Source: a virus | Length of the DNA stretch: 64,000 bases | Reading direction: 5' to 3' (one strand) | Virus record (IMG/VR): IMGVR_UViG_3300033145_000767 | Span: 26,470-90,469 of that record | Part shown: positions 1,681 through 40,068 of the stretch, piece after piece | Layout: the number at the start of each line of letters is the position of its first letter | How positions within the stretch are numbered: position 1 is the first letter of the stretch | Program-made: the position numbers and the translations under genes | The notes under the pieces: model-generated | What the model saw: the letters and a program-made list of their open reading frames with translations, nothing else | The model's database searches: none | Told to the model about the DNA's origin: nothing

Positions 1681-3022
1681 TAAAGGATATACTTCCCCAA
1701 GAATTTCATCGGAGTATAAGGATTGCGGACTTATTTTGACTTTTGACCAATACAATATATGTGGTTTTGGTTTTGGGAAACAATGTGCAGGATGTTTGTA
1801 TTGTTTTAGTAATTCCCAGAAAATAAACCACCCAATGTACCAAGAAAAAGCATTTCAAGTAAGGTCAGTAAACCCTGATAAAGTAGTTGACATGCTTACA
1901 GGAAAAAGTAAGTCTAAATATTATGATAATTTCTTTAAATATAGATTCCCCTTTCATTGGGGGGGTTTAGCAGACCCATTCTGTTACATGGAGGAGAAAG
2001 AAAGAGTTGGTTTAAAAATATTACAAGGTGCAAGTAAAGTACAGTATCCTATAATATTCTCTACAAAAGGCACTTTTATGTGCTATGATAAAGAGTATCT
2101 TAAAGTATTTGAAAGTTATAAGAAAAGTAAAAACTTAGGGTTTAGCTTTAGTATAATTACTAATGAAGAAAGTCTTGCAAGTAAAATAGAAAAAGAAGTG
2201 CCAACTGTAGAAGAAAGACTTAAAGCAATGAAAATTCTTTCTGACATGGGCTTTTGGACAGTTCTTAGGCTAAGACCCTTTATGATTGGTATAACAGATA
2301 TTAACTTAGAAACCCTCTTAGAAAGGGCTAAAAAGGCCGGTGCAAGGGCAGTATCAACAGAGTTTTATTGCCTAGACCTTAGAAGTTTAAGCACCTTAAA
2401 TGAAAGACTTAAAGAAATGAATAAAATAACAGGTCTTGACTATAGAAAATATTATAAAGCTTTATCCCCAAGTAGCAGAGGAACTTACTTGAGATTGAAT
2501 AGGCTGGCAAAAGAGCCCTATATGAAAAGGTTACTAAAGAAATGTAAGGAACTAGATTTAAAGGTTTCTATATCAGACCCAGACTTTAAAGAGTTTAATT
2601 TTTCTGGGTGTTGCTGTGGCTACCCTGAAACTAAAGAAGAATATAATAGTGAAATTTGTAATTGGTCTAAAGGTCAATTAACATATCATTTAACAGAATT
2701 AAGAAAAAAGTATTGGTCTGGTTATAGACCTGCATTATTAACTTGGGACGAGGTTAAAGATACTATAGCTAATGATTGGGCAAGTGATGGGAGATACTTT
2801 AAAGATAGTATAAAATATTGGTCAACAGATTTTAGAAAGAAACAGCAATCACACATAGATGAATTTCTACAGTCATGGAATAGTACTAAGTCAAGTGATA
2901 GCCCATACAGTTATTTTGATGGGTTATTAGTCCCATATAAATTAGACGACAATGGTAATATAGTTTATAAATATGAACCTTCTGATTCTGAGCTTAGATT
3001 GCGTAAGGACGGAATTGTATGA
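1670..3022 (+). CDS. Radical SAM protein related to spore photoproduct lyase / photolyase-like group
   Basis: This is a 450-residue protein with an AGGAG site six bases before ATG 1670. A cysteine cluster C39-x2-C42-x2-C45 followed by F occupies the place of the radical SAM [4Fe-4S] motif, which is normally Cx3Cx2C, so the spacing is one residue short. GGLADPF (about 98-104) followed by E and a helix matches the conserved block after the first strand pair in SPL/photolyase-like radical SAM proteins. A second cysteine group, CCC near 313-315 plus C330, could hold an auxiliary cluster. The reaction is unknown. Neighbours include a DUF2284-like protein and a glycosyltransferase, so DNA repair, cofactor or base-modification chemistry are all possible. 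Confidence 0.75.
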   Translation: MACSKGYTSPRISSEYKDCGLILTFDQYNICGFGFGKQCAGCLYCFSNSQKINHPMYQEKAFQVRSVNPDKVVDMLTGKSKSKYYDNFFKYRFPFHWGGLADPFCYMEEKERVGLKILQGASKVQYPIIFSTKGTFMCYDKEYLKVFESYKKSKNLGFSFSIITNEESLASKIEKEVPTVEERLKAMKILSDMGFWTVLRLRPFMIGITDINLETLLERAKKAGARAVSTEFYCLDLRSLSTLNERLKEMNKITGLDYRKYYKALSPSSRGTYLRLNRLAKEPYMKRLLKKCKELDLKVSISDPDFKEFNFSGCCCGYPETKEEYNSEICNWSKGQLTYHLTELRKKYWSGYRPALLTWDEVKDTIANDWASDGRYFKDSIKYWSTDFRKKQQSHIDEFLQSWNSTKSSDSPYSYFDGLLVPYKLDDNGNIVYKYEPSDSELRLRKDGIV

Positions 3023-3105: not shown

Positions 3106-3348
3106 ATGAAAAAGTTTATTACCATGTTACTAATGATACTAATGGTTTGGGTAGTTGTTGATAAACAATGCACACATAGCAGAAATTATTTTGTGTTAGA
3201 AAATAAAATAGGGGTTAGAAAAGTTTTCCATAGCCATGCCTCTAAGGATAATGAGGTTATTATTGGGGATAGAGTAAAAATTAAAATACCCACAAAAAGA
3301 TTAAAATGGTATGAAGATTCATATAAGTACTTAGAGGGGGTAATATGA
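3106..3348 (+). CDS. Small exported or membrane-anchored protein, 80 aa
   Basis: The product has a hydrophobic N-terminal segment (about 4-18) that could be a signal peptide or anchor, then a basic soluble tail with a GDRVKIKIP stretch. GGAGGAAAGAGGAG lies upstream of ATG 3106. Its stop overlaps the start of the next gene. No family recognised. Confidence 0.6.
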   Translation: MKKFITMLLMILMVWVVVDKQCTHSRNYFVLENKIGVRKVFHSHASKDNEVIIGDRVKIKIPTKRLKWYEDSYKYLEGVI

Positions 3349-3899
3349 TAAACGAAAAAGAAGTTAGTAACTTATTACTAGAAAAAGTTGGTACTCATAG
3401 TAGTATCTTTATGTTCAAAGCAAAAGTTATATTCGATAAGAAAATAAAAACTTACTGTTGCTTAGAGTATAATGGGAAAAAAGGGTGTCCTAACTATGGT
3501 AAAAAGAAAGGGTGTCCACCAAACAATAGAGATATAGATGAAGTGCTAGATGTAACAGAAGACATTTATGTATTTGGTATGTCTTTTAACTTAAAGATAC
3601 ACGCAGATGAAATGAAAAAGAAACACCCTAAGTGGACACAAAGGCAATGCTATAATGTAATATATTGGCAACCAAAGCAGAGAAAGAAATTTAAGATGTT
3701 TATAGATAACTTTAAAAAGAAGTACCCTGAATTAAGGGTAGACACCTTGCCAGAGGGGCATGGGGTTGATGTAACTAAAATGTTAAAAGATGCAGGTGTA
3801 GGTATATCCTGGGACTACCCTTTGGACACAGTTTGGACAGTTGCAATAGCAGGTAAGAAGGCTAAATATAAAAGAAAAAAGAGGGTTAAAAATGTATAA
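3345..3899 (+). CDS. DUF2284-like cysteine-rich protein
   Basis: This 184-residue protein contains CPNYGKKKGCPPNN (about 48-61), preceded by a C-C pair (YCC near 37-39). That pattern, cysteines followed by the CPP signature, is the hallmark of DUF2284, a family described as predicted metal-binding. A second DUF2284-type gene occurs at 31445. It overlaps the gene on either side. Being next to a radical SAM protein, it could take part in Fe-S or metal delivery, but that is inference. Confidence 0.6.
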   Translation: MINEKEVSNLLLEKVGTHSSIFMFKAKVIFDKKIKTYCCLEYNGKKGCPNYGKKKGCPPNNRDIDEVLDVTEDIYVFGMSFNLKIHADEMKKKHPKWTQRQCYNVIYWQPKQRKKFKMFIDNFKKKYPELRVDTLPEGHGVDVTKMLKDAGVGISWDYPLDTVWTVAIAGKKAKYKRKKRVKNV

Positions 3900-4686
3900 G
3901 GTATACATTCCTACAAAAGGCAGAGCAAATAACTTATACCTAAATAGGTTAGTAGATGTCATTAAGGTAAAACCTATATTAGTTGTAGAACCTCAAGAGT
4001 TAGAGGAGTATAATAAAGCATACAAGAATAAGGTATACTATGAGGTATTAGCTAAAGATAATATGGGGTATAATTACCTTATAAAAAAATTATATAAAAC
4101 TATAAAGCTATTTAACTTTAATGCTTTTATCATTGATGATGATATATGTAATATATACTTAAAAGAAGTGGGGAAGAAAAGGTTAAATCTAGGTATAGAA
4201 AACATAAATTTTGCACTAAACTATATATCCTGTTATACCCCATATGCCCTAACAGGTAGCGTATTTAAACAACACCAATGGGTGTGTGAAACAGATTTTC
4301 AAGACTTTGGCAGACCTTCAGCTTTTGTATATATAAAAGGCAATGAGATAACGGATGAAGTTTTGTCATATTTCAATAGATATGATATACTTAGTTATAG
4401 GCTTAAAGCAGACATTATGTTTGCCACAGCCTGCTTATATAACGGTTTAAAGATAGGTATGTGTGGTAGATATGGGTTTACTACACCCGATATGGCTAAA
4501 AGTAAAGGGGGTTGTTATGATGATTACCAAACAGACCAGCAATCTTTATGTAGTAAAGAAATACACAATATAGTAGGTAGTAATTTTTCATCAGTAATAC
4601 ATAGAAGGGGTAGAACAGAAGTAAAGATAGCATGGAAAAAGCTATATGATGCAAAAGTAAAAACTAAACAGAACAAACTATTTTAG
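3892..4686 (+). CDS. GT-A fold glycosyltransferase, TAGT-like
   Basis: The protein opens with YKVYIPTKGR, followed by LVVEPQE near 35-41 and the triple-acid sequence IIDDDI near 80-85. These are the expected order of nucleotide-sugar and metal-binding motifs in a GT-A enzyme. The IPTKGR plus VEPQE combination is typical of the TET-associated glycosyltransferase (TAGT) group, some of which sugar-modify phage DNA bases. No TET/JBP dioxygenase or hydroxymethylase is visible in this window, so the acceptor could equally be a surface glycan. It overlaps the preceding gene by 8 bases. Confidence 0.6.
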   Translation: MYKVYIPTKGRANNLYLNRLVDVIKVKPILVVEPQELEEYNKAYKNKVYYEVLAKDNMGYNYLIKKLYKTIKLFNFNAFIIDDDICNIYLKEVGKKRLNLGIENINFALNYISCYTPYALTGSVFKQHQWVCETDFQDFGRPSAFVYIKGNEITDEVLSYFNRYDILSYRLKADIMFATACLYNGLKIGMCGRYGFTTPDMAKSKGGCYDDYQTDQQSLCSKEIHNIVGSNFSSVIHRRGRTEVKIAWKKLYDAKVKTKQNKLF

Positions 4687-8233: not shown

Positions 8234-8494
8234 ATGAAAAAAGAATTTAAAATCCCATTTTGGACATTCATGTTCTTTATTATATGCTACTCTAATCAAG
8301 GGTTAGCAGGTTTACCAGAACAATGTTTGTATTATTTAAAGAGGGAATCTTGGGGTTTGTCAGCTACATCTATAGGCCTTATTGGTATAATAACAGGTCT
8401 AGCTTGGTATACAAAGGTCTTGTGGGGCTATCTAAATGATTATACTCCGTTAAGAAAAATAAAAATAAGATTTAGAAAAAAAGGAAAGAAATGA
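8234..8494 (+). CDS. N-terminal part of a BT1-type (folate/biopterin) MFS transporter
   Basis: The 86-residue product covers the first two membrane helices of the BT1/folate-biopterin transporter family. The sequence around LPEQCLYYLK, then SATSIGLIGIITGLAWYTK-LWGYLND, matches the family pattern (yyL..., W.iKpl.G.lsD). It ends in a basic cytoplasmic segment just as the second gene begins (ATGA overlap at 8491). An A7 run at 8476-8482 is in phase for a -1 ribosomal slip that would join both parts into a chain of about 429 residues, close to family size. It is either a two-gene transporter or a frameshift-made one. Confidence 0.7.
   Translation: MKKEFKIPFWTFMFFIICYSNQGLAGLPEQCLYYLKRESWGLSATSIGLIGIITGLAWYTKVLWGYLNDYTPLRKIKIRFRKKGKK
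8476..8482 (+). other. A AAA AAA slippery heptamer, candidate -1 frameshift site
   Basis: Seven A's are arranged as A AAA AAA relative to the codons of the gene starting at 8234. Slipping back one base after codon 8480-8482 continues as AGG AAA GAA ATG into the frame of the gene at 8491 with no stop. Transcriptional slippage on the A7 run would have a similar effect. Downstream structure was not evaluated. Confidence 0.5.
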
Positions 8495-9522
8495 TTATTA
8501 AACTACCTTATAAGTATGAAGTAACTATTGAAATAACAAAAGACAGGTACTTATCTAAGTACTATTTATATATAGCTTATTCATTGATTATAGCTTGTAT
8601 ACTATATATAGTTACATTTGGCTTAAATATTGTAAGCCTTATTGTAACAGGGTTACTAATTAATATTGGAATTGCTTTAGCAGATGTAGCAAATGATAAG
8701 CAGATGTGTTTAATAGAAAGAGAGCATAATTTAAAAGGGAAGGTTCAAGCTATTCAATGGGCATCATTAAGTGTATGTAGCTTAGTTGTATCTTTACTTG
8801 GGGCATACTTAGCTTCCACATTACCAGAACCTTTAAATTATAAACTAGCTTATGGTATTTGTATAATAATACCTATAAGTGCATTAATATATTTGAGAAC
8901 AAAATATTTTGAAGAGCCTGTAAAAGAAGTTAAGAAGTTTACTTTAAGTGTATTTAGATATTTGAAAAATAAAGACTTCTTACTTGGTCTAGCCTTTATA
9001 GTTTTACTTAGGTTTAGCCCATCCTTTGGTACAGGGCTTATGATTAAATGCAGAGAAGAATTATTTATTGGTAAGATGTTCCTAGGTTATGTTGGGGCAT
9101 TGGGTACAGTAGTAGGTATGGTAGGTTATGGCTTATATTATTGGAAAGCACATAAGTTTCCTATTAAAAAAATGTTATATTTTACAATAGTATTTGGGGC
9201 TATAACAAGTCTTTTCTACCTATATCTGCCTAGTAAGTGGTTTTTAGTTGCTTACAGTCTATTATTTGGGGCATTTGAGGGTATATCTTTCTTAGCTGTT
9301 ATGTCCTTCATGGTTAAGATATTACCTACTGGAAGTGAAGCTATGTTTTATGCATTAGTTACATCAGCTAATAACTTATCTAGTAGATTAGGTAGTGCAT
9401 TTGGTGGTATAATATATGATAACTTTGGCTATAATATGAATGTAGTAGTAGCAAGTTTGTGCACTTTTTTATGCATATTCATAATCCCACACTTAAAAAT
9501 AGAGGAGATACCTAATGAGTAA
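8491..9522 (+). CDS. Main part of a BT1-type (folate/biopterin) MFS transporter
   Basis: The 343-residue membrane protein has about nine or ten hydrophobic helices and lacks the first two helices expected of a 12-helix MFS carrier; those are supplied by the gene at 8234. Family-like features include LINIGIALADVANDKQMCLI near 65-85 (family pattern: ..a.sDv..Da...e) and a C-terminal half with LGSAFGG near 310. Substrates of the family are folates, pterins or S-adenosylmethionine; which one applies here is not readable. It would act in the host inner membrane during infection. Confidence 0.7.
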   Translation: MIIKLPYKYEVTIEITKDRYLSKYYLYIAYSLIIACILYIVTFGLNIVSLIVTGLLINIGIALADVANDKQMCLIEREHNLKGKVQAIQWASLSVCSLVVSLLGAYLASTLPEPLNYKLAYGICIIIPISALIYLRTKYFEEPVKEVKKFTLSVFRYLKNKDFLLGLAFIVLLRFSPSFGTGLMIKCREELFIGKMFLGYVGALGTVVGMVGYGLYYWKAHKFPIKKMLYFTIVFGAITSLFYLYLPSKWFLVAYSLLFGAFEGISFLAVMSFMVKILPTGSEAMFYALVTSANNLSSRLGSAFGGIIYDNFGYNMNVVVASLCTFLCIFIIPHLKIEEIPNE

Positions 9523-10267: not shown

Positions 10268-10978
10268 ATGATACACATAGAGAGATTTATAGATAATACA
10301 TTTTTAAAGGGGGGCAATAGAGCAAAGTTGCTAGATGATTTTATGAGTACATATAAACATGCCTTTAGGTCATTATGTACCAATGAGGGTAACCTTGAGT
10401 TAGCTAAAGAGGCTAAAGTGTTATTCCCTTCATCCCCAACTAAACTGGCTATTGTTAGAAATTTTCCTTATGGAACATCTAGTAAGCCTGCACCTATAGA
10501 AGATAGGGAAATTGACGAATATGATGTAGTTATACCGCATAAGTTAATAGCAAGAAACAAAGTAGACAAGGTAAAGTTTTTCTTAGACGCCTACTACAGA
10601 ACAGGTAGAACCATTAAGTGGGTAATAGAAGAACCTCTATATGAAGACTATGAAATATCGGAGCTAGTAAATTTTATATACTCTCATTATATGGAGGGAA
10701 GATATAATAATAGAGTTTATATAAAATCAAACTCTGGGTTTGTAGACAGAAAGAGGGCATTTAATACAGTTGTTAAACTATTTCCAAGCCTTGTTAGAAG
10801 GGTTGCACCTAAAGAACACCTTGGGGTAAAGATTTCGGGTTGGGTATCAACACTAAAACAGGCGAGGAGAATTGCACAGCAAGATTGTATTATGGGCTCA
10901 TCTAAAGGTTTAAAAATATTTTATGAACAGCAGAACTTAAAATATGATACTGCAAATAAAAGAATTATAGAGGGGTAG
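10268..10978 (+). CDS. Deoxyribose-phosphate aldolase-like protein (DeoC family)
   Basis: DERA cleaves 2-deoxyribose 5-phosphate to acetaldehyde and glyceraldehyde 3-phosphate. The order of family blocks is clear: IDNTFLK (IDhTlLk), NFPYGTSS (GFPlG), EYDVVIP with the active-site Asp, IKWVIEEPL (lKvIiEt.l), YIKSNSGF with the Schiff-base Lys (K153), and LGVKISGWVSTL with the second Lys (K188). ATG 10268 is preferred over 10265 because AGGAG at 10258-10262 is then five bases away. The next genes also act on deoxyribose or dNTPs. It is divergent, so a changed substrate is possible. Confidence 0.8.
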   Translation: MIHIERFIDNTFLKGGNRAKLLDDFMSTYKHAFRSLCTNEGNLELAKEAKVLFPSSPTKLAIVRNFPYGTSSKPAPIEDREIDEYDVVIPHKLIARNKVDKVKFFLDAYYRTGRTIKWVIEEPLYEDYEISELVNFIYSHYMEGRYNNRVYIKSNSGFVDRKRAFNTVVKLFPSLVRRVAPKEHLGVKISGWVSTLKQARRIAQQDCIMGSSKGLKIFYEQQNLKYDTANKRIIEG

Positions 10979-10979
10979 T

Positions 10980-11135
10980 ATGAAGAAGTATAAACTTTTT
11001 GTAACCTATGGACTAATGGTGGCCAGTAATAACCCTTTGTACCTAAGAGTAGGGTTTCATAATAGGGGGGCAAAGTATGGGTTATACATTGATACCTTAG
11101 TAAGTAGAACATGGGTGTACCTGAAAAGAGGTTAG
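10980..11135 (+). CDS. Small hypothetical protein, 51 aa
   Basis: A basic protein with alternating beta-like strands (LFVTYGL, LYLRVGF, KYGLYIDTL, WVYLKR), perhaps a small beta-sheet domain. It starts one base after the aldolase stop. No family recognised. Confidence 0.5.
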   Translation: MKKYKLFVTYGLMVASNNPLYLRVGFHNRGAKYGLYIDTLVSRTWVYLKRG

Positions 11136-11137
11136 TT

Positions 11138-11356
11138 ATGGTAAGAAAAAATAGTAAAAAGTATAGAATAGCTAAAAGACTAGGGGAAATATACTTAGCC
11201 TTAAAAGAACTCTCTGGAGAATTGCAGGAATTTGCAGAAGACCATGAACTAGGTAGTATAGGTAATATGCTTTTAGATGATATTAAAAAGATAGAGCAAG
11301 CAGACCACGATTTAATTCGGGTTGCTCACAAATTAATAAAAGAGGGGGGAAACTAG
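11138..11356 (+). CDS. Small helical hypothetical protein, 72 aa
   Basis: ATG 11138 follows AAAAGAGG with normal spacing; an in-frame ATG at 11111 lies inside the preceding gene and has no site. The product is a helical hairpin of about 72 residues with a basic first turn and an acidic body. No motif recognised. Confidence 0.55.
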   Translation: MVRKNSKKYRIAKRLGEIYLALKELSGELQEFAEDHELGSIGNMLLDDIKKIEQADHDLIRVAHKLIKEGGN

Positions 11357-11949
11357 TGTTAATTAATAAAATAAACTCTATGAAAAATCTTGATGATTTT
11401 TTATATACTACTTACCTAATTGGTGCTATGGAAGAGAAAGCCGAAGGTGATAGTGGAGAGTCTAAAAGAGAGGTATTTTTTAATGGGTTAGTAAAAAGAA
11501 ATGTATTCCCTATAGACTCAACTAGAACTGAAGTTATGAGAACAGGTTTTACTTCTAAAGAACTTAAAGAAAAAATGGCAGGTTGGACAGCTTCAGGTAA
11601 TAAAGAACTAAGAAAAAAATATGCTAAATGTATCTGGGAAGGAAGAAATATGGTTGATGAAGATTTTAACCTAATATACATTCCAGGCGATTTTCATGCA
11701 GTTAAGATTTCTAATTGGATAACAGCCGTTATAAATGAAGGGGATAGACCTTGTGGTACATTTGGTGAAGCTGGTGTAGCTACAGATATAAAGATACCTA
11801 TTTATATAATAACTGAGCTACCAAAATATAAATTGCCAGGAAGCTTAATACAATGGATGGATATTAATGATGGGGAAGTATTTAAAACTCAAAGAGAGTA
11901 TTTTAACTTTATAGATAAAAAATATGTTTTAAAGGAGAAAAAAAGATGA
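11356..11949 (+). CDS. Nucleoside 2-deoxyribosyltransferase-like protein
   Basis: The 197-residue protein starts with GTG at the stop of the previous gene. TYLIGAMEE near 14-22 corresponds to the first strand of the NDT fold (ylaGp.). A D-x-N-L-I-Y-I-P-GDFH region follows. GTFGEAGVATDIKIPIYIIT (about 135-154) corresponds to the Gt..E...A...gkPv motif with the conserved Glu. Such enzymes exchange or hydrolyse bases on deoxyribonucleosides. Its place beside a DeoC-like aldolase and a dNTP hydrolase suggests deoxynucleoside turnover. Confidence 0.65.
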   Translation: MLINKINSMKNLDDFLYTTYLIGAMEEKAEGDSGESKREVFFNGLVKRNVFPIDSTRTEVMRTGFTSKELKEKMAGWTASGNKELRKKYAKCIWEGRNMVDEDFNLIYIPGDFHAVKISNWITAVINEGDRPCGTFGEAGVATDIKIPIYIITELPKYKLPGSLIQWMDINDGEVFKTQREYFNFIDKKYVLKEKKR

Positions 11950-12407
11950 GCAATGAAAAACCCACTAACCCAAAAGGTATTATTGGTAGTAGTAAACTAC
12001 CTTTTCACCTTTGCCCAACAACCTTTATAGCAGGGGTATCAATGGCTTTTCTTGAAGGTTGCTTAAAGTATGGCAGAAGTAATTTTAGAGCAGCAGGGGC
12101 AAGGTCTAGTATTTATTATGATGCAACAATGAGGCATTTAATATCATGGTTTGAGGGGGAAGATATAGACCCTGATAGCGGGATACATCATTTATATAAA
12201 GCAGGGGCTTGTTTAGCAGTAATAGCTGATGCTATGGAAGCAGATAAATTAAATGATGATAGAATGATTAAGGGAGGTTATGAAGATATAATTAAAAAAT
12301 TTACCCCTTTAATTAAAGAGATAAAAGAAAGGCATAAAGGTAAAAACCCTAAACATTATACTATAAAAGATAACAAAAAGGAGGAACAGGATGAAGTTAA
12401 AAGTTAA
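11946..12407 (+). CDS. dATP/dGTP diphosphohydrolase-like protein (N-terminal domain family)
   Basis: KYGRSNFRAAG (about 39-49) followed by an R-H-L-x-S-W-F-E-G-E-D-x-D-P-D-S-G block and an H-H-L-x-K-A-G-A-C-L helix is the pattern of the phage dATP/dGTP diphosphohydrolase N-terminal family, related to all-alpha MazG-like NTP pyrophosphatases. The expected reaction is dNTP to dNMP plus PPi. It may shape the dNTP pool in concert with 10268 and 11356. It is coupled to both neighbours by overlap. Confidence 0.75.
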   Translation: MSNEKPTNPKGIIGSSKLPFHLCPTTFIAGVSMAFLEGCLKYGRSNFRAAGARSSIYYDATMRHLISWFEGEDIDPDSGIHHLYKAGACLAVIADAMEADKLNDDRMIKGGYEDIIKKFTPLIKEIKERHKGKNPKHYTIKDNKKEEQDEVKS

Positions 12408-12750
12408 AGAAGTACTAAGTATGAAAGAAGTTTTACAGAAACTAATAGGTCAAGATTTAGATACAGTAGTAAGTTATGATGTAGAGGAAATAGTTTCAAG
12501 TATTAATGAAGAATTAGCTACTTATAATAAAACTAAAACTAAACTTATAAAGAAACTAGGTAAAGAAGATAAAGATAAAAAGACTATTGTAGTTGAAAAA
12601 GAAAACATAGAAAAATATAATAAAGAGTTAGTTAAAATATTAGAAAAAGAAGTAGAAATAAAAGGTAACAAAATTAAAGTTTCAAGACTAGAGGGAAGTA
12701 AATTAAATGTTATAGAAGTTGCTAGAATTAAACCTATACTAGAAAGATGA
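12391..12750 (+). CDS. Helical hypothetical protein, 119 aa
   Basis: Preceded by AAAGGAGG, the protein has a long charged helical body (about 10-90) rich in Lys, Glu and Val. The layout resembles small phage proteins of the DUF1617 kind, but I cannot confirm it. It overlaps the endonuclease gene at 12747 by ATGA, so it is the 3'-end partner of that mobile gene. Confidence 0.55.
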   Translation: MKLKVKEVLSMKEVLQKLIGQDLDTVVSYDVEEIVSSINEELATYNKTKTKLIKKLGKEDKDKKTIVVEKENIEKYNKELVKILEKEVEIKGNKIKVSRLEGSKLNVIEVARIKPILER

Positions 12751-19066: not shown

Positions 19067-19377
19067 AGTTGGCTATAGCAGAAGAACTTAAGTCTAGGGG
19101 TTTAGACATATATGCAAGACCTACAAAGGCTAGTGGGGCTAGTACAGAGTTGGGGGATGTAGAGAATAAATTGCTCATGGTTGAAGCAAAGCAACAGCTT
19201 ACAAAGAAACACCTTACTATAAACAGTAATGTATTCCTAGAAAATGAAGCTTTGTTGCCATACAATTCCAAGAAAATAGCAATTATGGCTTTAGAGAATA
19301 AAACCCTAGGAAAGTTAATTGCCTTACGCATGAATGACTTTTTTGACCTTTTAGAAAGAGCAGAAAAAAATGATTAG
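19042..19377 (+). CDS. PD-(D/E)XK nuclease, VRR-NUC / resolvase-like
   Basis: The 111-residue protein has E12-xx-helix, then ARPTKASGASTELGD39V, and VE48AK50, the D...ExK catalytic core of small PD-(D/E)XK nucleases such as VRR-NUC and archaeal-type Holliday resolvases. It probably processes recombination intermediates. ATG 19042 is chosen over 19021. Its last eight bases overlap the homing endonuclease at 19370. A diverged second copy of its own 3' end lies beyond that endonuclease (19769-19892). Confidence 0.75.
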   Translation: MSQHNNSLELAIAEELKSRGLDIYARPTKASGASTELGDVENKLLMVEAKQQLTKKHLTINSNVFLENEALLPYNSKKIAIMALENKTLGKLIALRMNDFFDLLERAEKND

Positions 19378-19765
19378 CGAGAAGACAAAATACAACAAGC
19401 TATATTATAAGAAAAATAAAGCTAGAGAATTAGAGCGGGCTAAAAAATGGGCAGTAGATAATAGAGATAAAAGAAGAGCAAGCCTTAAAAAATACTATAG
19501 GGAGAACCCATGGATGAATGCTTATAGAGGAGCAAAGGCTAGGTGCAATAACCAAAATAACAATAGATATAACTCTTATGGTAAGAGGGGTATAAAGTTT
19601 TTATTAACCAAGGAAGAACTAAAGAAGTTATGGTTTAGAGATAAAGCATTTAATATGATTAAGCCTTCTATAGACCGTATTAATAATGATGGGAATTATG
19701 AGTTTAATAATTGTAGATTTATTGAATTAAAGGCTAATTTATTAAAAAGGCATAGTAAGATATAG
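19370..19765 (+). CDS. Free-standing HNH-like homing endonuclease, no NUMOD1
   Basis: A 131-residue member of the DRIDNDG-type family with a basic N-terminal helical part (about 1-40), RCNNQNNNRYNSYGKRG, SIDRINNDGNY and NNCRFIE. It stops shortly after the core and has no NUMOD1 module. Its core DNA is about 92 percent identical to that of 12747. It separates the PD-(D/E)XK nuclease gene from a relic of that gene's 3' end. Confidence 0.85.
   Translation: MISEKTKYNKLYYKKNKARELERAKKWAVDNRDKRRASLKKYYRENPWMNAYRGAKARCNNQNNNRYNSYGKRGIKFLLTKEELKKLWFRDKAFNMIKPSIDRINNDGNYEFNNCRFIELKANLLKRHSKI
19604..19726 (+). repeat. Endonuclease-core DNA repeat, copy 2
   Basis: Partner of 12882-13004. The alignment has no gaps and about ten substitutions over 123 bases, several of them silent. 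Confidence 0.8.
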
Positions 19766-27763: not shown

Positions 27764-29202
27764 GAGTAAAAAGATTATACCTTAATAATTTTAAACTATT
27801 TATAGAAGAAAATATAGAGCCTAAAGGTCTTAATATTTTTATAGGGGATAATAGGGATAATGAAAGTTCTAACGCTTCTGGTAAGTCTACACTAGCTTTA
27901 GAGGCTTTAATGTTCGTATTATATGGGTATACTACTGCTAAATTAGCAGATACTATTTCTAAAGGTAAAAATATGGCATCTGTAGAAGTTTTACTAGAGT
28001 TAAAAGGTATTGAGTATAAGATTAGTAGAGAAATACCAAGTAAGCTCTATATGGAAGTTAATGGCGAGGAAAAGCAATTTGCTACAGCTACTATAGCCCA
28101 AAAATATATTAACGCCATCTTTGGGGATGTTGACTTCTTTAAAAAGTTTAGAACTCTTGATATGCAAAGCGGTATAAACCTATTAGACTTAGGTAATACT
28201 TCTTTAAAGAATTTACTTATGCAATTTATACAAGATTACTTTACCAAGATAAGAAAATCTTTACAAGAGAAGAAACAAAACATGGCTAGATTTCACATCA
28301 AGCATAGAATATTCACACATTTTTATTCTGAGAAAAGAATAGCAGTACTTGACAAACAAATTACTAGGCTTAAGGGTGAATTTGGTTCTACTAAGGGAGA
28401 CCCTAATACACAAGCTAGAGAGATATATAGTGAGTTATGTGGAAGTAATACTGCAATTATTAATATAGCACAACATCTTGAAGAGATTAGTAGAAATAAC
28501 TGCCCTACATGCAATAGGAAACTTCCTAAAGAGATAAATAAGAAACTAGTAGATGAACTTAATGAAGAGTTAGATATAGCTACAGATAGGAGCCAAGAAC
28601 TTACAGAACAGTTAGGTAAAACTAATAAAGATATAGGAAATTATAACAAAAGGTTAGAAGAAGTACATAATGATTTAAACCATGTTCGTGAGTTAAAGCA
28701 AAAAATAGAGCATATGAAAATATTAAAAGACTATAAATATACTGATAGGGATGTATCAATCTATACTAGTTCCCTGAGGGTACTTGATAATTTCTCTGCT
28801 CTTTATATAGAAAATTGGTTAGCAAGTTTGAGTGTTATAATCAACGCATTGTTAAAAGAAATAAATATAAGTATCAAATTTGATGCTACCAAAGAATTTA
28901 TGACAATACAAGATGGTACAGAAACAATGAAGTATGACCAGCTTAGCACAGGTCAAAAAAGATTTCTTAACATAATATTTAAGTTATCAATATTAATGCA
29001 TAAAAATTTAGAAGGTATTATAGTAATAGATGAGGGAATAGATGCCTTAGATATTACTAATCTTAAAAGATTAATTAGAGTATTTGAATCTTTACCTTTT
29101 CAAGTATTTTTAATATCTCAACACTCTGACATAAAGAGTTTGAAAGATGTTAAATGTTTTAATATACTTAGGCAAAACAACAAGGCTAAGGTGGTTGCAT
29201 GA
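27760..29202 (+). CDS. SbcC/Rad50-like ATPase
   Basis: The 480-residue SMC-type ATPase has an N-terminal P-loop (FIGDN...SNASGKST, about 27-45) and short coiled coils. A zinc hook CPTC (C248, C251) follows. The ABC signature LSTGQKR (about 395-401) and Walker B GIIVIDEGIDALD (about 421-433) complete it. It is the gp46-type partner of the SbcD-like nuclease. The coiled coils are much shorter than in bacterial SbcC, as usual in phages. Confidence 0.85.
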   Translation: MRVKRLYLNNFKLFIEENIEPKGLNIFIGDNRDNESSNASGKSTLALEALMFVLYGYTTAKLADTISKGKNMASVEVLLELKGIEYKISREIPSKLYMEVNGEEKQFATATIAQKYINAIFGDVDFFKKFRTLDMQSGINLLDLGNTSLKNLLMQFIQDYFTKIRKSLQEKKQNMARFHIKHRIFTHFYSEKRIAVLDKQITRLKGEFGSTKGDPNTQAREIYSELCGSNTAIINIAQHLEEISRNNCPTCNRKLPKEINKKLVDELNEELDIATDRSQELTEQLGKTNKDIGNYNKRLEEVHNDLNHVRELKQKIEHMKILKDYKYTDRDVSIYTSSLRVLDNFSALYIENWLASLSVIINALLKEINISIKFDATKEFMTIQDGTETMKYDQLSTGQKRFLNIIFKLSILMHKNLEGIIVIDEGIDALDITNLKRLIRVFESLPFQVFLISQHSDIKSLKDVKCFNILRQNNKAKVVA

Positions 29203-29642
29203 GTGCGAAAGGTATAAGATTCTATAAAAGAAACCCTTGGTTAAGGCACTATTATAATGCTAAAACTAGATGCGAAAATATTAAATATAAAAATTATAAA
29301 AACTATGGAGGTAGAGGAATAAAGTTTTTATTAACCAAAGAAGAAATAAAGACTATATGGTTTAGGGATAAAGCATGGTTATTAAATAAACCAAGTATAG
29401 ATAGGGTAAACAATGATGAAGATTATACTTATGGTAATTGTAGGTTTATAGAGATAGAAGAAAACAGAATTAAAGATAGTATAAAGGGTGTAAATCAATA
29501 TAATTTAGAGGGTGTTTTTATCTGTAATTGGAAAAGTGCCAGACAGATAGAAAGAATATTAGGTATACCTAATAGTAATATTTCTAGTGTATGTAAGGGA
29601 AAAAGAATATCAGCACATGGGTATACTTGGAGGTTTATATAA
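29199..29642 (+). CDS. Free-standing HNH-like homing endonuclease with NUMOD1 domain
   Basis: A 147-residue member of the DRIDNDG-type family: RCENIKYKNYKNYGGRG, SIDRVNNDEDY (Gly of DG replaced by Glu), GNCRFIE, and a NUMOD1 end with ISSVCKGKRISAHGYTWRF. It begins in ATGA overlap with the SbcC-like gene and its last base is the first of the next gene. Sequence is more diverged than between 12747 and 19370. Confidence 0.8.
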   Translation: MSAKGIRFYKRNPWLRHYYNAKTRCENIKYKNYKNYGGRGIKFLLTKEEIKTIWFRDKAWLLNKPSIDRVNNDEDYTYGNCRFIEIEENRIKDSIKGVNQYNLEGVFICNWKSARQIERILGIPNSNISSVCKGKRISAHGYTWRFI

Positions 29643-30755: not shown

Positions 30756-31448
30756 ATGCGGACAGCCCTCATAACAGGAAGTTCTAAAGGAATAGGTTAC
30801 CAAATAGCTAAAGATTTTTTAGCTAAAGGTTACTATGTTATTACGAACTCAAGAAAAATGCAGTATGATTTACCTGAAAATCAGCTACATTTATGTGGGG
30901 ATTTATCTAGCCATAAAGGATGTATGTCTTTATGTTCTAAAGTTAAAGACTTAGATACTAAGTTAGATAGCATTGTTCTAAGTGTAGGTGTAACAGATAG
31001 AACCCCTTTTGGGAATATTAAATACTCTAACTGGGGTAAAGTTATAGATACAAATTTAAACCTACCTTTTTTCCTAGTTCAGCAGTTGAAAGAATGTATC
31101 AAACGCAATGGTAGTATAATTTTTATTTCATCTGTTCTAGGTAGTCTCCCTAGGTCAAGAAGTATATCCTATGGGGTTTCAAAAGGGGCATTAGAACCTT
31201 TAATTAAATACCTAGCTGTAGAGTTTACATATAATAATATTACTGTCAATGGTGTAGCTCCAGGGTTTATTAACACAGATTGGCATAAAGGTAAAACAAA
31301 AAAAATACTTAATAGTATTAAGTATTCTATACCTATGGGTAGATTTGGTAGCACTAAAGAGATTAGCAGTACTGTAATGTTCTTAGCTAATAATAGGTAT
31401 ATTACAGGGCAGATGATTACTGTAGATGGGGGGTATAGCTTAGCATGA
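30756..31448 (+). CDS. Short-chain dehydrogenase/reductase (FabG-like)
   Basis: A classical SDR of 230 residues: TGSSKGIG (7-14) binds NAD(P), followed by the LSVGV and N-T-N-L motifs. The catalytic part is ISS...YGVSK, and the APGFINTD and C-terminal ITGQMITVDGGYS blocks are typical of FabG-type reductases. The NRK-like residues after strand 2 (NSRK) suggest NADP. It heads a run of overlapping genes up to the LicD fusion, so a sugar or polyol precursor is a reasonable substrate guess. Confidence 0.85.
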   Translation: MRTALITGSSKGIGYQIAKDFLAKGYYVITNSRKMQYDLPENQLHLCGDLSSHKGCMSLCSKVKDLDTKLDSIVLSVGVTDRTPFGNIKYSNWGKVIDTNLNLPFFLVQQLKECIKRNGSIIFISSVLGSLPRSRSISYGVSKGALEPLIKYLAVEFTYNNITVNGVAPGFINTDWHKGKTKKILNSIKYSIPMGRFGSTKEISSTVMFLANNRYITGQMITVDGGYSLA

Positions 31449-31933
31449 TTACCACTAAGGTAATAGAGCCTAAAGTATTAGTTAAGTACCTAAGTAATAA
31501 AGTTAGAGATTGGTGTAAAGGGTGTAAAAGGTATGCACAAAATTTGCCTTGTTGCCCGCCAAGCTTAATGCCTATAAAAAGGTATAAGCGTTTGATTCTA
31601 TCTTATAAAAACGCAATGCTAATAGCTGTTAAATTCGATATTGATAGTGAAATACATTGGAAAGTACAGGGCAGAGAATCAAGCAAACTATTAGTATCTA
31701 TACTAAAGTCTTATGCGAAAGAATTTAAAAACCATATAATCTTTGGGGCAGGGTCTTGCAAAAGCTGTGATATTTGTAGTAACCCCTGTAAAAACCTTAA
31801 AGGTAAAGTAATAGCAGTAGAAGCTATTGGTATCAATGTGGTTAAGTTAATGGCAGAGCAAACAGATATTAAACTATTTTTCCCTGTAGAAAAGAAGGGC
31901 TACTTTTATAGAATAGGGTTATTATTATGGTAA
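31445..31933 (+). CDS. DUF2284 predicted metal-binding protein
   Basis: The 162-residue protein has C-x2-C...LPCCPPS (about 19-41) and a second cysteine set GSCKSCDICSNPCKN (about 101-115), the two conserved clusters of DUF2284. The family biochemistry is not established; two Fe-S or zinc sites are likely. It lies between the SDR and the cytidylyltransferase, and a shorter relative is at 3345. Confidence 0.75.
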   Translation: MITTKVIEPKVLVKYLSNKVRDWCKGCKRYAQNLPCCPPSLMPIKRYKRLILSYKNAMLIAVKFDIDSEIHWKVQGRESSKLLVSILKSYAKEFKNHIIFGAGSCKSCDICSNPCKNLKGKVIAVEAIGINVVKLMAEQTDIKLFFPVEKKGYFYRIGLLLW

Positions 31934-32379
31934 ATGTAACCAATTTATATGTTCCAGGCACTTTTGACCTATTCCATGTAGGGCATATTAGAATGTTTAA
32001 GTATGCATCTAAGTTTGGGAATGTAATTGCAGGGGTCAGTACTGATGAACTAGTACTCTCATATAAGAATTTAGCTCCTATATACCCATTTAAGGAGAGA
32101 TGGGAGACGGTTGATGCATGTAGATATGTTAATAGGGTAATTCCTCAGAGAAAATTTTTTAGTATTCCACAACTAAAGAAATTAAATATATGCTATGTTA
32201 TACTTGGTAGCGATTGGGAAGGTAAAGACTTCCCTGAATTAGACCAAGCCCAAAAAGCTTTAGGTTTTGAGATAATATATAAACCTTATACAGAAGAAAC
32301 AAGTTCATCAAAAATAAAAGAGAGAATTATTCGTAATAGCTTTGATATTATTAAAGCTCAACTAGAAAGAGACCTATAA
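31927..32379 (+). CDS. Cytidylyltransferase (glycerol-3-phosphate / TagD-like)
   Basis: The 150-residue enzyme has the nucleotidyltransferase signature GTFDLFHVGHIRM (12-24), with HxGH, and ETSSSKIKERI near 125-135, equal to the ISST...R motif. This class makes CDP-glycerol, CDP-ethanolamine or CDP-choline. KERW near 56-59 is also family-typical. The next gene is a LicD-type transferase, so a CDP-activated alcohol made here is probably transferred there. The exact alcohol is not readable. Confidence 0.85.
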   Translation: MVNVTNLYVPGTFDLFHVGHIRMFKYASKFGNVIAGVSTDELVLSYKNLAPIYPFKERWETVDACRYVNRVIPQRKFFSIPQLKKLNICYVILGSDWEGKDFPELDQAQKALGFEIIYKPYTEETSSSKIKERIIRNSFDIIKAQLERDL

Positions 32380-34298
32380 TGAGCCACGAAAACTTTAGCT
32401 ACGATAACTATACACCATACTTAAGAGCTTTAACCAAAATAATGGCTACCTTTAAAGCTATTAATATTCCTCTTTGTTTGCATGGAGGAACTTTATTGGG
32501 TAGTGTAAGAGAAGGCGATTTCATCCAAGATGATGATGATATAGATATTTTCTATATTAGTAGAGGGAAAAACAAGTATCAGGTTAAAAAAGAGTTTGAA
32601 GAACTAATATTACCTGCTCTAAAGAAAGCAAGATATGATGTCAAACCAATTTCTTGGACTTTTCATAATGGTAAGAAAGAGATTTTTGGTCAGTACCATG
32701 TAACTAAAAATGGCATAACTTTAGATGTATGGATGGCATGGACTGATGAAAATGATAAATTCTTTTTATCCCCCTATATATCTGGTCAACTAGATAAGAA
32801 AGACATTTACCCTCTTAAAAAAGGTAAGATAAAAAATAACAAGTTTTTAATACCTAATAAGGCAGAAAAGCTTATAGAATTAATATATGGCAGTGAGTGG
32901 AAAATACCTAGTAAGTTTAGGGCAAGTTTAAATCGTTACTTTGTTAAGAAGAATATGCTAAAAATAATTGATGAATTTGGTTGGGCTTATTACTTTATAG
33001 CTAAAGAGCAACAAGTGTATACAGTACACAACATATCTTATATTAGGCTAAAAGATTATACTGATAGTATACTAAAAGATATTGACATAGTATACTTTCC
33101 ATCCCCAGGAATCCAAGCACCAATAGTTACCAAAGTATGCAAGGGTATAAGAGCTAAGTACCCTAAAATAAAAATAATAGGAGCGTATGCAGGGGAAAAT
33201 AGATTCATTTATACTGATGTTGACATAATAGTATCTATATCAGCTAAGTTTGTTCCCGTACTAAGGGATAGATACCCAAATAAGGAAGTTATCTTCTTAC
33301 CTGAATCAATTGACACAAACTACTTTAAACCTAATACTAAAAAGGCTAAGGAGTTTACTGTTGGTTACGCAGGAAGAAAAAACCCTTATATAAAGAGAAC
33401 GCCTTTACTTGAAAAATTAGATTACCCTGTTGTAAAAAAGATGAATCATGGTAAAGATTTCTTTGTAGAAGGCAGCGACCGTACAGAAATGATAAACTTC
33501 TATAATAGTGTCTCATGCTTGGTATTAGTTAGTAGAACTGAATGTATGCCAAGGGTTATACTAGAGGCTATGGCTTGTGGTAAAGCAGTTGTGTGTACTG
33601 ATGTAGGTAGTATTAGAATGTTATTAGACCTTGAATGGGTTGTACCTGTAAACCCAGATGAAGTTGTTATCTCAGAGGTAAATGCTAGATTAAATATATT
33701 AAACAAATACCCTAGTGTATTAAAAGCAGTAGGTAAACGAAATAGAGAATATATACACAAATACTTCTCATGGGAAAAGAATCAACACTTATGGGATTCA
33801 GTAGTAGATTATTTATACCTAGAGGACTATAAAACTATACTAGAGATTGACGACCAGTATTGTGAGTTGTTTAAAGATATTGAACCAGCATTGGTTGAGA
33901 AAGATGTTGTATCTGCTTTAACTATAGAAGTAACTACTAAAGTTATTGAGCCTCCTAAGGTTACTTACCTAGCAGACCCTATAACTTTTAATTCTAAAGG
34001 TATTAAAGACCCAATAGCTCTATCTATGGAATTAAACTATAGAGGAATAGATTTCTGGTTATTGTCAGATTCATGCCTATCTTTAGTTAATCATAAAGAG
34101 TTGAGGGGTAACAAGTTACATATAGGGGTTAGTAGTAAGGCATTAAAAGACAAGATAAAAGAACTCTATGCACATAAAAATTTATTTATTAAAGTAGAAC
34201 CTAAACGAAAAGTAAAATCATATGGGGCCTACAAAGTTCCTGTGCCAGTAGTTTCTTACCTACATGAGCTTTTTGGTAGCGAATGGGACTCTTTCTAA
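32379..34298 (+). CDS. LicD - GT4 glycosyltransferase - degenerate LicD fusion
   Basis: A 639-residue protein in three parts. The N-terminal LicD nucleotidyltransferase domain has HGGTLLGSVRE (35-45) and DDDDIDIF (51-58), closing with LIELIYGSEW near 160-169. A GT4-type glycosyltransferase covers about 225-490, with the Rossmann pattern and ECMPRVILEAMACG holding E-x7-E. The C-terminal segment (about 525-639) ends VPVPVVSYLHELFGSEW, the LicD closing motif, but lacks the acidic DxD part. LicD proteins transfer phosphocholine, phosphoglycerol or similar from CDP donors to glycans. A surface-polymer or virion decoration enzyme is inferred. Confidence 0.8.
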   Translation: MSHENFSYDNYTPYLRALTKIMATFKAINIPLCLHGGTLLGSVREGDFIQDDDDIDIFYISRGKNKYQVKKEFEELILPALKKARYDVKPISWTFHNGKKEIFGQYHVTKNGITLDVWMAWTDENDKFFLSPYISGQLDKKDIYPLKKGKIKNNKFLIPNKAEKLIELIYGSEWKIPSKFRASLNRYFVKKNMLKIIDEFGWAYYFIAKEQQVYTVHNISYIRLKDYTDSILKDIDIVYFPSPGIQAPIVTKVCKGIRAKYPKIKIIGAYAGENRFIYTDVDIIVSISAKFVPVLRDRYPNKEVIFLPESIDTNYFKPNTKKAKEFTVGYAGRKNPYIKRTPLLEKLDYPVVKKMNHGKDFFVEGSDRTEMINFYNSVSCLVLVSRTECMPRVILEAMACGKAVVCTDVGSIRMLLDLEWVVPVNPDEVVISEVNARLNILNKYPSVLKAVGKRNREYIHKYFSWEKNQHLWDSVVDYLYLEDYKTILEIDDQYCELFKDIEPALVEKDVVSALTIEVTTKVIEPPKVTYLADPITFNSKGIKDPIALSMELNYRGIDFWLLSDSCLSLVNHKELRGNKLHIGVSSKALKDKIKELYAHKNLFIKVEPKRKVKSYGAYKVPVPVVSYLHELFGSEWDSF

Positions 34299-35439: not shown

Positions 35440-35606
35440 AAACATTGCATGAATGTGTAAGTAGCTGGTATTGTACTAATTATGTAATTTGCCCTATATG
35501 CAAATGTAGAGCAGGGTATGATGTGATGTATGATAGTGAAACAAAGAAGGTATTTAAGTGCAAATGTAATAAAGGGTTAAAACAAATAAAGGATGAAAAT
35601 GCATAA
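35436..35606 (+). CDS. Zinc-ribbon miniprotein, 56 aa
   Basis: Cysteines C7, C13, CPIC (19-22), C24 and CKC near 42-44 give a zinc-ribbon pattern on a 56-residue chain. It overlaps both neighbours. Function unknown. Confidence 0.5.
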   Translation: MKTLHECVSSWYCTNYVICPICKCRAGYDVMYDSETKKVFKCKCNKGLKQIKDENA

Positions 35607-36357
35607 AATAGCTATATGCTTAACTACTTTTATGAGAAATGAATTATTAATTGATACTGTAGATAGTATCATTAAGTACTTCCCAGAAAATAGTGTACTA
35701 TACATAGCAGACCAAGGGAATAAATCACAAGTTAAAGATAGATACTTTTCTTACCTTACCAGTAAAACTGGTAGGGTTTTTTACTTTAACCTTCCTTATG
35801 ACTGTGGTTTAAGCTATGCTAGAAATTACCTTGTTGATGTGGCTAAGCACGCTGGTATAGATTATTGCCTTATTACAGCAGATAGTTTAAGATTTATAAA
35901 TAAACTTAATCTTGAACCAATAGTAAATGGCATGGAAAAGAATGTAGATGCTCTTGTAGGTTTTGAGATAAAAGATAGAATACCTTGGGAGTGGAATATA
36001 GAACTAGTCCCTGAAAAACATTTCTGGTTATCTAAAATTAGCCCTGATGCTATTATACAGCATGAGGGTTTTATTATTAAGCGAGTAGAGCTATGTAGAA
36101 ACTTCTTCTTAGCTAAGACAGAGGCTTTACTAGATGTTAAATGGGACAATGATTTAAAGCTTGCAGAACATGAAGACTTCTTTTATAGGCTTAAGCTGAA
36201 GGGGTATAAGTGTATATGGACTAATATAGTGTCAGCAGAGTATATAGAAGATAAGCCAGAAGAATATAGAAAGATGCGAGATAGAATGTATAACCACTTT
36301 CAATACATAATGTTAAAGAAATATAATATTAAACAATGGATGAAATATGAGATATAG
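35599..36357 (+). CDS. Family 2-like glycosyltransferase
   Basis: The 252-residue protein (from ATG 35599; ATG 35593 is two codons longer) starts with HKIAICLTTFMRN, the first GT-A strand. It has DCGLSYARNYLVDVA near 73-87, a block typical of GalNAc-transferase-like GT2/GT12 enzymes. ITADSLRF stands where the DxD usually lies, and HEDFFYRLKLKGYKC near 190-204 holds the catalytic acid region. It probably adds a sugar to a surface or virion glycan. It overlaps the next gene by 11 bases. Confidence 0.75.
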   Translation: MHKIAICLTTFMRNELLIDTVDSIIKYFPENSVLYIADQGNKSQVKDRYFSYLTSKTGRVFYFNLPYDCGLSYARNYLVDVAKHAGIDYCLITADSLRFINKLNLEPIVNGMEKNVDALVGFEIKDRIPWEWNIELVPEKHFWLSKISPDAIIQHEGFIIKRVELCRNFFLAKTEALLDVKWDNDLKLAEHEDFFYRLKLKGYKCIWTNIVSAEYIEDKPEEYRKMRDRMYNHFQYIMLKKYNIKQWMKYEI

Positions 36358-37006
36358 TATAACTAAGTTTTTAAGACCGTTCACAGGTACAGGTGCAATA
36401 TTCTTTCCAGTTGGGCATCCCCCATTTGGGACGTGTGAAAATGCTACACCTGATTGTTACCATTATTGTTATGCAGTAGATAAGGAAGACTTAAACTTTG
36501 ATGAAGAATTAAGAATATCTAAAGTGGAAAAACGAGCAATATATAATTACTTTGTAACAACCAATAATAAAAAACTTAAATCAAGAATAATTAGAGAGCT
36601 AGATGGGCTACAAACACCTATACTGCATTGGTTTGGTACAGGTGATTGCCTTAATAAAGATTTACCTAAGATTAGTAAACTTATAGATGTTTTAAGAGGG
36701 GAAAATGTTATACAAATGGGGTTTACTAGAAATAAAAAATTATGGGAACTGCATAAAGATGTATTTGCATTAAGCATTGATTCAAAAAAAGAGGCTACAG
36801 ACCCTAATGCAATGTATTCCATACCAGATTATAAAAAACAAATATCTGTAATGTATTGCCCTTCATATCAAGTTGTAGGAGGTTATTGTGGGGCTCTTAC
36901 TTGCAGAGATAAAGATAAATCAAGAACTAATTTAGAACATTATATAAATTGTAGAACTTGTTTAAGAATGAAAACTGGATGTTTTGATAGGAGGAATAAT
37001 GTATAA
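36347..37006 (+). CDS. Gp88-like cysteine-rich protein, radical-SAM-like
   Basis: The 219-residue protein has CENATPDCYHYCYA (about 30-43) near its start. That spacing is found in the phage Gp88 group, whose cluster resembles a radical SAM site. LHWFGTGDC near 93-101 follows and a C-terminal CRTCLRMKTGC (about 203-213) could bind another metal. The chemistry is unknown. It is one of several Fe-S-type candidates in this arm (1670, 3345, 31445). Confidence 0.6.
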   Translation: MRYSITKFLRPFTGTGAIFFPVGHPPFGTCENATPDCYHYCYAVDKEDLNFDEELRISKVEKRAIYNYFVTTNNKKLKSRIIRELDGLQTPILHWFGTGDCLNKDLPKISKLIDVLRGENVIQMGFTRNKKLWELHKDVFALSIDSKKEATDPNAMYSIPDYKKQISVMYCPSYQVVGGYCGALTCRDKDKSRTNLEHYINCRTCLRMKTGCFDRRNNV

Positions 37007-39381: not shown

Positions 39382-40068
39382 ATGTTTAATCAAATAATTA
39401 TTATAGGTGGGGGCGAAAGTATAAACATAGGGTGTAAAAATGGTTTATATGATAAACTTAAAAATACTCTAACTATAGGCTGTAACTATGCTTACAAAAG
39501 TTTTAACACTACCTTTAATACATTTGTGGACATTGAAACATATGAGAAAAATAGAAAAATATTACAGACTAGATTATGTGCATGCCATTATGCAAACCTA
39601 GATGAACCTTTAAGATTCCCAGAAGCTTATTGGTTACCACATGAAAAAGATTACATAGGGGTTGCAACAACAGGTAAGGTATATAACCCTATGTTGGTAG
39701 GTATATGGTCGCTAAGTTTAGCCCTTTATATGATGAAAGGGGTAGGGGAAATATACCTCCTTGGTTTTGACTGGACTAAAAAGGGTGAAGGTAATACTCA
39801 TTTCTATCAAGGTAAAATAGACCATTCAGGTATTAATAAAACAGATTTCTATGATGCTCAAGACCCAGATAAATGGTTTTCCCCTTTCTTAAAAGAAAAA
39901 GGGGTCAACATATATAATGTCAACCCCGAATCTAATATTAATACTTTTACTAAACTAAACTATGGTGAGTTCTTTAGCAAACTTAAAGATGAGCCTTACT
40001 CACAAGATTATTTAAAAAGGTATATTCAAGCAAAATTAGAGCCTATTAGGATAATACAGACCCAGTAG
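39382..40068 (+). CDS. DUF115 / Cst-sialyltransferase-like Rossmann protein
   Basis: The 228-residue protein begins with IIIIGGGES, a Rossmann-type loop, then TIGCNYAYKSF, a later G-x-W-S-L-S-L-A-L-Y-M helix and IYLLGFDW. This set occurs in the DUF115/MptE-like and CstI-type sialyltransferase group. It may transfer a sugar in surface-glycan synthesis, like the other carbohydrate genes here. It is the last gene of the + arm; its last 23 bases overlap the end of the opposite-strand gene 40046-40873. Confidence 0.6.
   Translation: MFNQIIIIGGGESINIGCKNGLYDKLKNTLTIGCNYAYKSFNTTFNTFVDIETYEKNRKILQTRLCACHYANLDEPLRFPEAYWLPHEKDYIGVATTGKVYNPMLVGIWSLSLALYMMKGVGEIYLLGFDWTKKGEGNTHFYQGKIDHSGINKTDFYDAQDPDKWFSPFLKEKGVNIYNVNPESNINTFTKLNYGEFFSKLKDEPYSQDYLKRYIQAKLEPIRIIQTQ

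Follow-up and report, generated by a model that had tools for sequence, protein, structure and literature searches.

A recurrent phage cassette of SDR, DUF2284, cytidylyltransferase and LicD genes with a putative role in phosphodiester decoration of glycans

Human FKRP and fukutin are ribitol-5-phosphate transferases that use cytidine diphosphate (CDP)-ribitol. They combine a catalytic domain of nucleotidyltransferase (NTase) fold, carrying a DxDxD motif, with a fused glycosyltransferase (GT)-like domain. According to the FKRP study, activity requires Asp360, Asp362, Asp364 and Asp416, and the phosphorylated acceptor is bound by a GT-like stem that belongs to one of the subunits (PMC6965139). 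In Campylobacter, a short-chain dehydrogenase/reductase (SDR) and a cytidylyltransferase encoded together make CDP-6-D-glucitol by activation and then reduction; CDP-ribitol is made by reduction and then activation, as cited in the accessible text of the same source (PMC10918830). In this study, four overlapping genes were analysed at positions 30756-34298 of a 64,000-nucleotide stretch of viral DNA (the window), which covers positions 26470-90469 of the linear virus record IMGVR_UViG_3300033145_000767 (90,469 bases in all). Judged from homology, motifs, gene linkage, fusions and selection, this cassette more probably than otherwise adds an alcohol to a glycan through a phosphodiester, a reading held with moderate confidence.

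All four genes lie on the plus strand. The first (30756..31448) encodes an SDR oxidoreductase of 230 aa (PF13561, 3.1e-44) with the motif TGSSKGIG and the residues Y139/K143. The second (31445..31933) encodes a Cys-rich DUF2284 protein of 162 aa (PF10050, 7.7e-21; 75 bits, cut-off 25). The third (31927..32379) encodes a TagD-like cytidylyltransferase (CyT) of 150 aa (PF01467, 2.3e-15), and the fourth (32379..34298) a LicD-GT4-LicD-like protein of 639 aa (LicD PF04991, 4.5e-5; GT4 PF13692, 2.5e-11). Starts and stops overlap successively by 1-7 bases from end to end. The open reading frames (ORFs) and Pfam matches agreed with a preliminary description of this DNA, made from its letters before any search, which had placed overlapping SDR, DUF2284, CyT and fusion-protein genes here. 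That SDR and DUF2284 belong to the cassette as constant members is a point absent from that description.

To investigate recurrence of the cassette, a DUF2284 alignment of three rows (window, L014 and L016; L numbers denote collected loci) was used to scan IMG/VR, and 11 loci were obtained. Gene presence was scored with our own hidden Markov models (HMMs) at a domain E-value of 1e-4 or lower, in every open frame of 60 aa or more on six-frame translation. Because these HMMs drew on the window, L014, L016 and a small number of further loci, the presence counts favour sequences like them. On the same strand as DUF2284, SDR and CyT were each present in all 11 loci, and LicD in 10 of the 11. Without L037 and L038, which are the query's own contigs, the counts were 9/9, 9/9 and 8/9. 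L041 and L042 come close to one virus, because they differed at only 4 positions in 2,210 bases. A further cassette, L046, was reached via CyT and carried a GT2-LicD protein and a LicD-LicD-GT2 protein. CyT was present in 13 of 20 loci selected by LicD; L027, L029 and L033 may be one virus, since their coordinates are identical. Among the best 80 of 558 loci selected by CyT, many of them short contigs, LicD was found in 10 and DUF2284 in 3. As a linked set, the four genes recur in about a dozen viruses, all of them uncultivated.

Several cassette carriers have little else in common with the window phage. L016, L039, L041 and L043 shared only cassette genes with it, and L034 shared the cassette genes and one gene similar to PHROG 4603. 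L014, L036 and L046 shared 10, 11 and 6 proteins with the window record, respectively, and are therefore its kin. The cassette genes are under purifying selection. The ratio of nonsynonymous to synonymous substitution rates (dN/dS) between L016 and L039 was 0.163 for SDR, 0.128 for DUF2284, 0.165 for CyT and 0.101 for LicD, with 0.115 for the major head protein.

LicD and CyT were found in one open frame at five loci (L026, L030, L057, L068 and L069). LicD was fused to SDR in L043, to a second LicD in L014 (same contig as L038) and L046, and to GT2 in L012/L028, L035, L026, L030, L014 and L046. In L009, CyT and LicD are separate genes that overlap. The fusions of LicD with CyT, SDR and GT were considered the strongest evidence for one shared pathway. 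With the L009 overlap and the presence of CyT at LicD-selected loci, they support the earlier proposal that CyT, LicD and GT work together, one part of an interpretation that was upheld in part and widened here. The LicD-CyT proteins of L026 (7113-9698), L030, L057 and L068 are about 850-900 aa long, and those of L026 and L030 have a GT2 at each end. The L026 gene lies directly 5' of tail terminator and major tail genes.

The N-terminal LicD domain (residues about 1-190 of the 639-aa protein; 32379..32948) scored above the PF04991 cut-off (24.1 bits against 22.6, residues 27-222). The motif DDDDID starts at residue 51. D52, D54 and D56 (codons at 32532..32546) were in register with the DxDxD of FKRP in an alignment to 6kaj, and were invariant in 12 aligned rows. 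An AlphaFold model from the 12-row alignment had a predicted local distance difference test (pLDDT) value of about 90 over most of residues 11-180. This alignment excluded the L035 C-end, which aligned to the N-terminal LicD domain instead; two earlier full-length alignments were set aside because GT rows had been placed on the LicD region. In a Foldseek search of the PDB with the model, the 13 best matches were all FKRP, with E-values from 1.1e-8 to 1.4e-7. The VIA comparison of the model with FKRP gave a Z of 16.4, a root-mean-square deviation of 3.0 and 158 aligned residues, against a Z of at most 12.3 for other NTases. According to the model, the domain has the NTase fold. D116, in TLDVW, is likely the fourth metal ligand. 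The domain had previously been called active-looking, and its agreement with FKRP in motif and fold upheld this.

Among solved structures, FKRP matched the phage LicD domain best, and the two proteins differ in arrangement. The GT-like stem of FKRP is N-terminal and thought inactive, whereas the phage GT4 keeps E-x7-E and a second LicD is degenerate instead. Mf1 of Mycoplasma fermentans and bacterial LicD phosphocholine transferases also belong to the LicD family and have an active-site Asp cluster, according to the accessible part of the literature. The Mf1 equivalog NF045866 matched the LicD part at 8.1e-10, but with 39.2 bits this was far under the cut-off of 225; the phage domain is fused to GT4, and no choline pathway was seen adjoining it. 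No close relative was found for the LicD part alone. In BFVD, fold matches of the model at ranks 1 and 4 were giant-virus proteins named LicD-glycosyltransferase fusions. Proteins of Indivirus and Fadolivirus, among the top fold matches, are by name such fusions in a virus, but these viruses are eukaryotic and the GT is of another type (GT92 by name in Indivirus).

The identity of CyT was investigated against PDB sequences. The best matches were ethanolamine-phosphate cytidylyltransferase (ECT; 3elb, 4.4e-20), GCT (TagD; 1coz, 2.2e-16) and 5x3d (1.4e-11). The last is the Fom1 cytidylyltransferase domain, whose substrate is a phosphonate. The HxGH motif of this fold family is kept as H17-V-G-H20. 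Known GCTs have both HxGH and RTxGISTT, and Arg113 of TagD is essential, as stated in the accessible part of the source (PMC8262930). In place of RTxGISTT, the window CyT has Y121-T-E-E-T-S-S-S, with Tyr in the Arg position, and Y121 was invariant in 10 of 10 aligned sequences. The GCT/TagD equivalog TIGR01518 gave 71.2 bits, far under its cut-off of 165.4. Since the Arg is absent, the label TagD is unsafe; the earlier term TagD-like is suitable as a description and not as a functional assignment. Streptomyces-phage CyT rows (L004 and L005) have R-T-G-x-S-T-T, compared with Y-T-x-x-x-S in the window, and therefore phage "tagD" genes comprise at least two groups. In the GT-GT-CyT clusters of Streptomyces phages (Stanwilliamsviridae), a TagD-like CyT likewise overlaps a glycosyltransferase gene, but LicD, SDR and DUF2284 were not annotated in the two regions viewed. 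No close relative of the window CyT alone was found by exact peptides.

In DUF2284, C24, C27, C37, C105, C108, C111 and C115 were invariant in 12 of 12 aligned cassette sequences. The seven Cys suggest metal or Fe-S binding, and DUF2284 is probably an Fe-S or other metal-binding protein. No account of its function was found in the accessible parts of the literature searched. DUF2284 of cellular type, in a single plasmid match (L126) and a faecal scaffold (L125), adjoins genes of the corrinoid methyltransferase type, with URO-D at both loci, RACo in L126 and a B12-binding gene in L125. This setting differs from the phage cassette and is a clue to DUF2284 biochemistry. A second, divergent DUF2284 gene (PF10050, 6e-8) was observed at 3345-4686 of the window with a TET-associated-type glycosyltransferase gene immediately after it, and the pair may serve DNA glycosylation.

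For SDR plus CyT, the Campylobacter CDP-6-D-glucitol pathway is by analogy the nearest precedent, although its cytidylyltransferase is PF01128 and its SDR is PF01370; the accessible text does not mention DUF2284 (PMC10918830). A search for an SDR of CDP-ribitol synthesis found none. In the proposed pathway, CyT would couple CMP to a small phosphorylated alcohol, for example a polyol or ketose, or to a phosphonate. Carbonyl reduction by SDR would precede or follow this activation, on the pattern of known CDP-alditol pathways, and DUF2284 would have an undefined metal- or electron-related role. The N-terminal LicD domain would take the alcohol-phosphate of the CDP-donor and pass it to a sugar in the manner of FKRP, with metal ions held by D52/D54/D56 and probably also D116. 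The fused GT4 would add a sugar before or after this transfer.

Several observations weigh against this pathway. We know of no CDP-alditol pathway in which DUF2284 has a role. CyT lacks the RTxGISTT Arg reported as essential in TagD, and another substrate or adenylyl transfer is possible. LicD was not found in L044 with our own HMMs. No usable AlphaFold model was obtained for GT4 or the C-end of the 639-aa protein. In the window, the cassette sits in the plus-strand half, apart from the structural genes.

No phage SDR-DUF2284-CyT-LicD cassette was found described in the literature searched, which lacks most subscription journals. The cassette would represent a new form of LicD-type phosphodiester decoration with DUF2284 as a fixed member. 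It links four gene families in a single phage pathway that can be tested, and gives DUF2284 a firm genetic context. The role of phage CyT, named GCT, is called unclear in the accessible text of two papers (PMC9146016, PMC6918029), and a cryoprotective role is proposed in that of another (PMC11515562). The cassette offers an explanation for such phage "tagD" genes. Its enzymes could also serve as tools to make phosphodiester glycans.

The virion was tentatively favoured over the host surface and DNA as the decorated target, with confidence a little short of even. None of the cassette proteins contains a strongly hydrophobic segment, the highest mean over 19 residues being 1.43, and the cassette neighbours in L016 are GT9-like and sulfotransferase-like genes. 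Both therefore lean to a cytoplasmic protein-bound glycan, such as virion decoration. In L016 and L045, the DNA that carries the cassette or LicD genes also encodes head proteins, and in L034 and L043 it encodes connector proteins; tests of three more proteins from L016 and L041 gave no family match. The soluble enzymes, and the nearness to capsid or connector genes in several other phages, lean to the virion. If the product is on virions, tailed phages would carry a phosphodiester glycan, with consequences for adsorption and stability. A wider reading, which we regard as rather doubtful, is that the cassette is a phage counterpart of the fukutin/FKRP pathway. It would then be a self-contained, horizontally moving unit in which DUF2284 and SDR supply a CDP-alcohol or phosphonate new to described glycan pathways, and multi-LicD/GT fusions write the phosphodiesters of virion glycans. 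If so, many phage "tagD" genes would belong to virion-decoration systems and not to host teichoic acid synthesis.

Modification of the host cell surface, leading to receptor masking or superinfection exclusion, was considered somewhat unlikely; the preliminary description had named both of these outcomes beside virion decoration. Surface glycans are targets of LicD and GT4 proteins in bacteria. The LicD part is matched by NF045866, and Mf1 is a glycolipid transferase according to the accessible text (PMC11982090). However, the lack of hydrophobic segments noted above argues against this target, and no flippase or lipid-carrier enzyme was met among the window proteins scanned, which were part of the ORFs.

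It was judged less likely again that "tagD" and licD are captured host glycan genes, auxiliary metabolic genes that aid host teichoic acid or capsule synthesis, without a phage-specific pathway. CyT is common in phages (104 INPHARED records), and the accessible parts of published papers name it GCT and tie it to teichoic acid. However, the fusions of LicD with CyT, SDR and GT indicate a dedicated phage pathway. Cassette-type DUF2284 was absent from 84,980 genomes (genome_contigs) by narrow peptide patterns. In 50,697 phage records, the window DUF2284 had no match at an E-value of 1e-3 or lower, and the L037 protein gave one weak match.

Hypermodification of phage DNA through a phosphodiester was considered improbable. 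It was kept in view because of the TET-associated-type glycosyltransferase elsewhere in this phage (3892-4686; PF20691 28.1 bits, cut-off 27.5; PHROG 842, 1e-15), which lies beside the second DUF2284. However, no pyrimidine hydroxymethylase was met among the proteins scanned (part of the ORFs), and the GT9- and sulfotransferase-like neighbours in L016 fit a glycan.

The remaining parts of the 639-aa protein were also investigated. The GT4 domain, putatively of GT-B fold (residues about 206-480; 32994..33818), gave 44.5 bits with PF13692 against a cut-off of 27 (2.5e-11), and matched PF00534 at 4.4e-11. The E-x7-E named in the preliminary description lies within TECMPRVILEA starting at residue 387, with acidic residues 388 and 396. 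The AlphaFold confidence was low across most of residues 310-480.

The C-end (residues about 552-639; 34032..34295) contains VPVPVVSYLHELFGSEW. It has no DxDxD: NKLHIGV stands where LicD has DDDID, and the metal ligands are gone. By itself, the C-end matched nothing convincing in Pfam or PDB sequences, and the LicD HMM gave a weak 4.5 bits, matched by 17 of 1982 scored shuffles. When the C-end was compared with the ORFs of a set of loci collected in this analysis, the matches that ranked highest, self-matches aside, were to LicD genes in L041/L042 (E 0.0041) and, in L035, to the C-end of a 915-aa protein (E 0.0045). A two-row profile of the window and L035 C-ends was compared by hhalign with a profile of 48 LicD domains that excluded the window's own. 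The probability was 95.9% with a score of 54.8; single C-ends gave 63.0% (window) and 87.6% (L035). Control scores were at most 20.2 for 200 column shuffles, 14.5 for the reversed profile and 13.4-15.9 for SDR, CyT and DUF2284 profiles. The profiles identify the C-end as a degenerate LicD relative, consistent with the earlier wording of a degenerate LicD-like end with no acidic pair. The structure prediction proposed earlier as a check did not confirm the fold, with a mean pLDDT of 31.7 and nothing usable for the C-end alone, and the kinship with LicD stood by profiles.

A rival view, in which the C-end is a binding domain without kinship to LicD and chance accounts for the two-LicD reading, was considered very improbable: the lack of Pfam and PDB matches, the weak HMM score and the unsuccessful model favour it, but the profile pair scored far above every control and the best locus matches were LicD genes and the L035 C-end. 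In the proposed pathway, the degenerate LicD C-end would be non-catalytic, and would bind the phosphorylated acceptor or help assembly. Because the FKRP stem binds its acceptor, the C-end may by analogy do so here.

The three-part architecture had been called unusual. Its exact form was not met again, but the plan of an active LicD, a GT and a degenerate LicD C-end recurs in the L035 protein. The order there is LicD (7-171), GT2 (181-438), a stretch read from the sequence as GT-B-like that has no Pfam match, and then the C-end. A scan with the two-row C-end alignment found no further C-ends. The 639-aa protein had no close relatives in viral_contigs or genome_contigs by exact peptides. It had one match in INPHARED, to the GT part only, and matches in 82 plasmid records, with GT4-region matches among the 30 listed.

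Genes around the cassette were also recorded. A GT2 glycosyltransferase gene (35593..36357, plus strand; PF00535, 9.9e-6) is a possible further member. Its homologues are beside or fused to LicD in L028, L035, L036, L026 and L030, and one is near the cassette in L046. A protein tentatively described as sialyltransferase-like is encoded at 39382..40068 on the plus strand (phrog_4603, 4.5e-6), and has homologues in the cassette- or LicD-bearing loci L034, L035 and L045.

The window phage is assigned to the tailed phages from its tape-measure, polymerase, primase and recombinase genes. The tape-measure protein is on the minus strand, and the plus strand carries the DNA polymerase, primase and recombinase genes. 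Portal-like and terminase-like genes were read from the window ORF list without a family match, and searches with the window terminase and the window DNA found no relatives. The GC content of the window is about 32%, and the GC skew reverses near 40 kb.

Other genes were observed in the window and the collected loci. An MFS (BT1-like) transporter gene is present in L014 (5083-6285) and L036 (3540-4766), where it overlaps, at its stop, the start of a gene that carries LicD. In the window, such a transporter was read as two overlapping ORFs (8234-9522). On the phage contig L011, positions 10846-12542 hold a NeuB-like synthase gene, so read from the sequence, followed by LicD. L006 (MT835584) is labelled a bacteriophage and resembles an actinobacterial chromosome, with dTDP-sugar and sugar-phosphate transferase-type genes among its ORFs. 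A radical SAM-like protein (1670-3022) and a GP88-like protein (36347-37006) of the window each scored under the Pfam cut-off. Similar-looking small proteins that resemble HNH-type homing endonucleases on reading are encoded at 235-813, 19370-19765 and 29199-29642 of the window, the last shortly upstream of the cassette.

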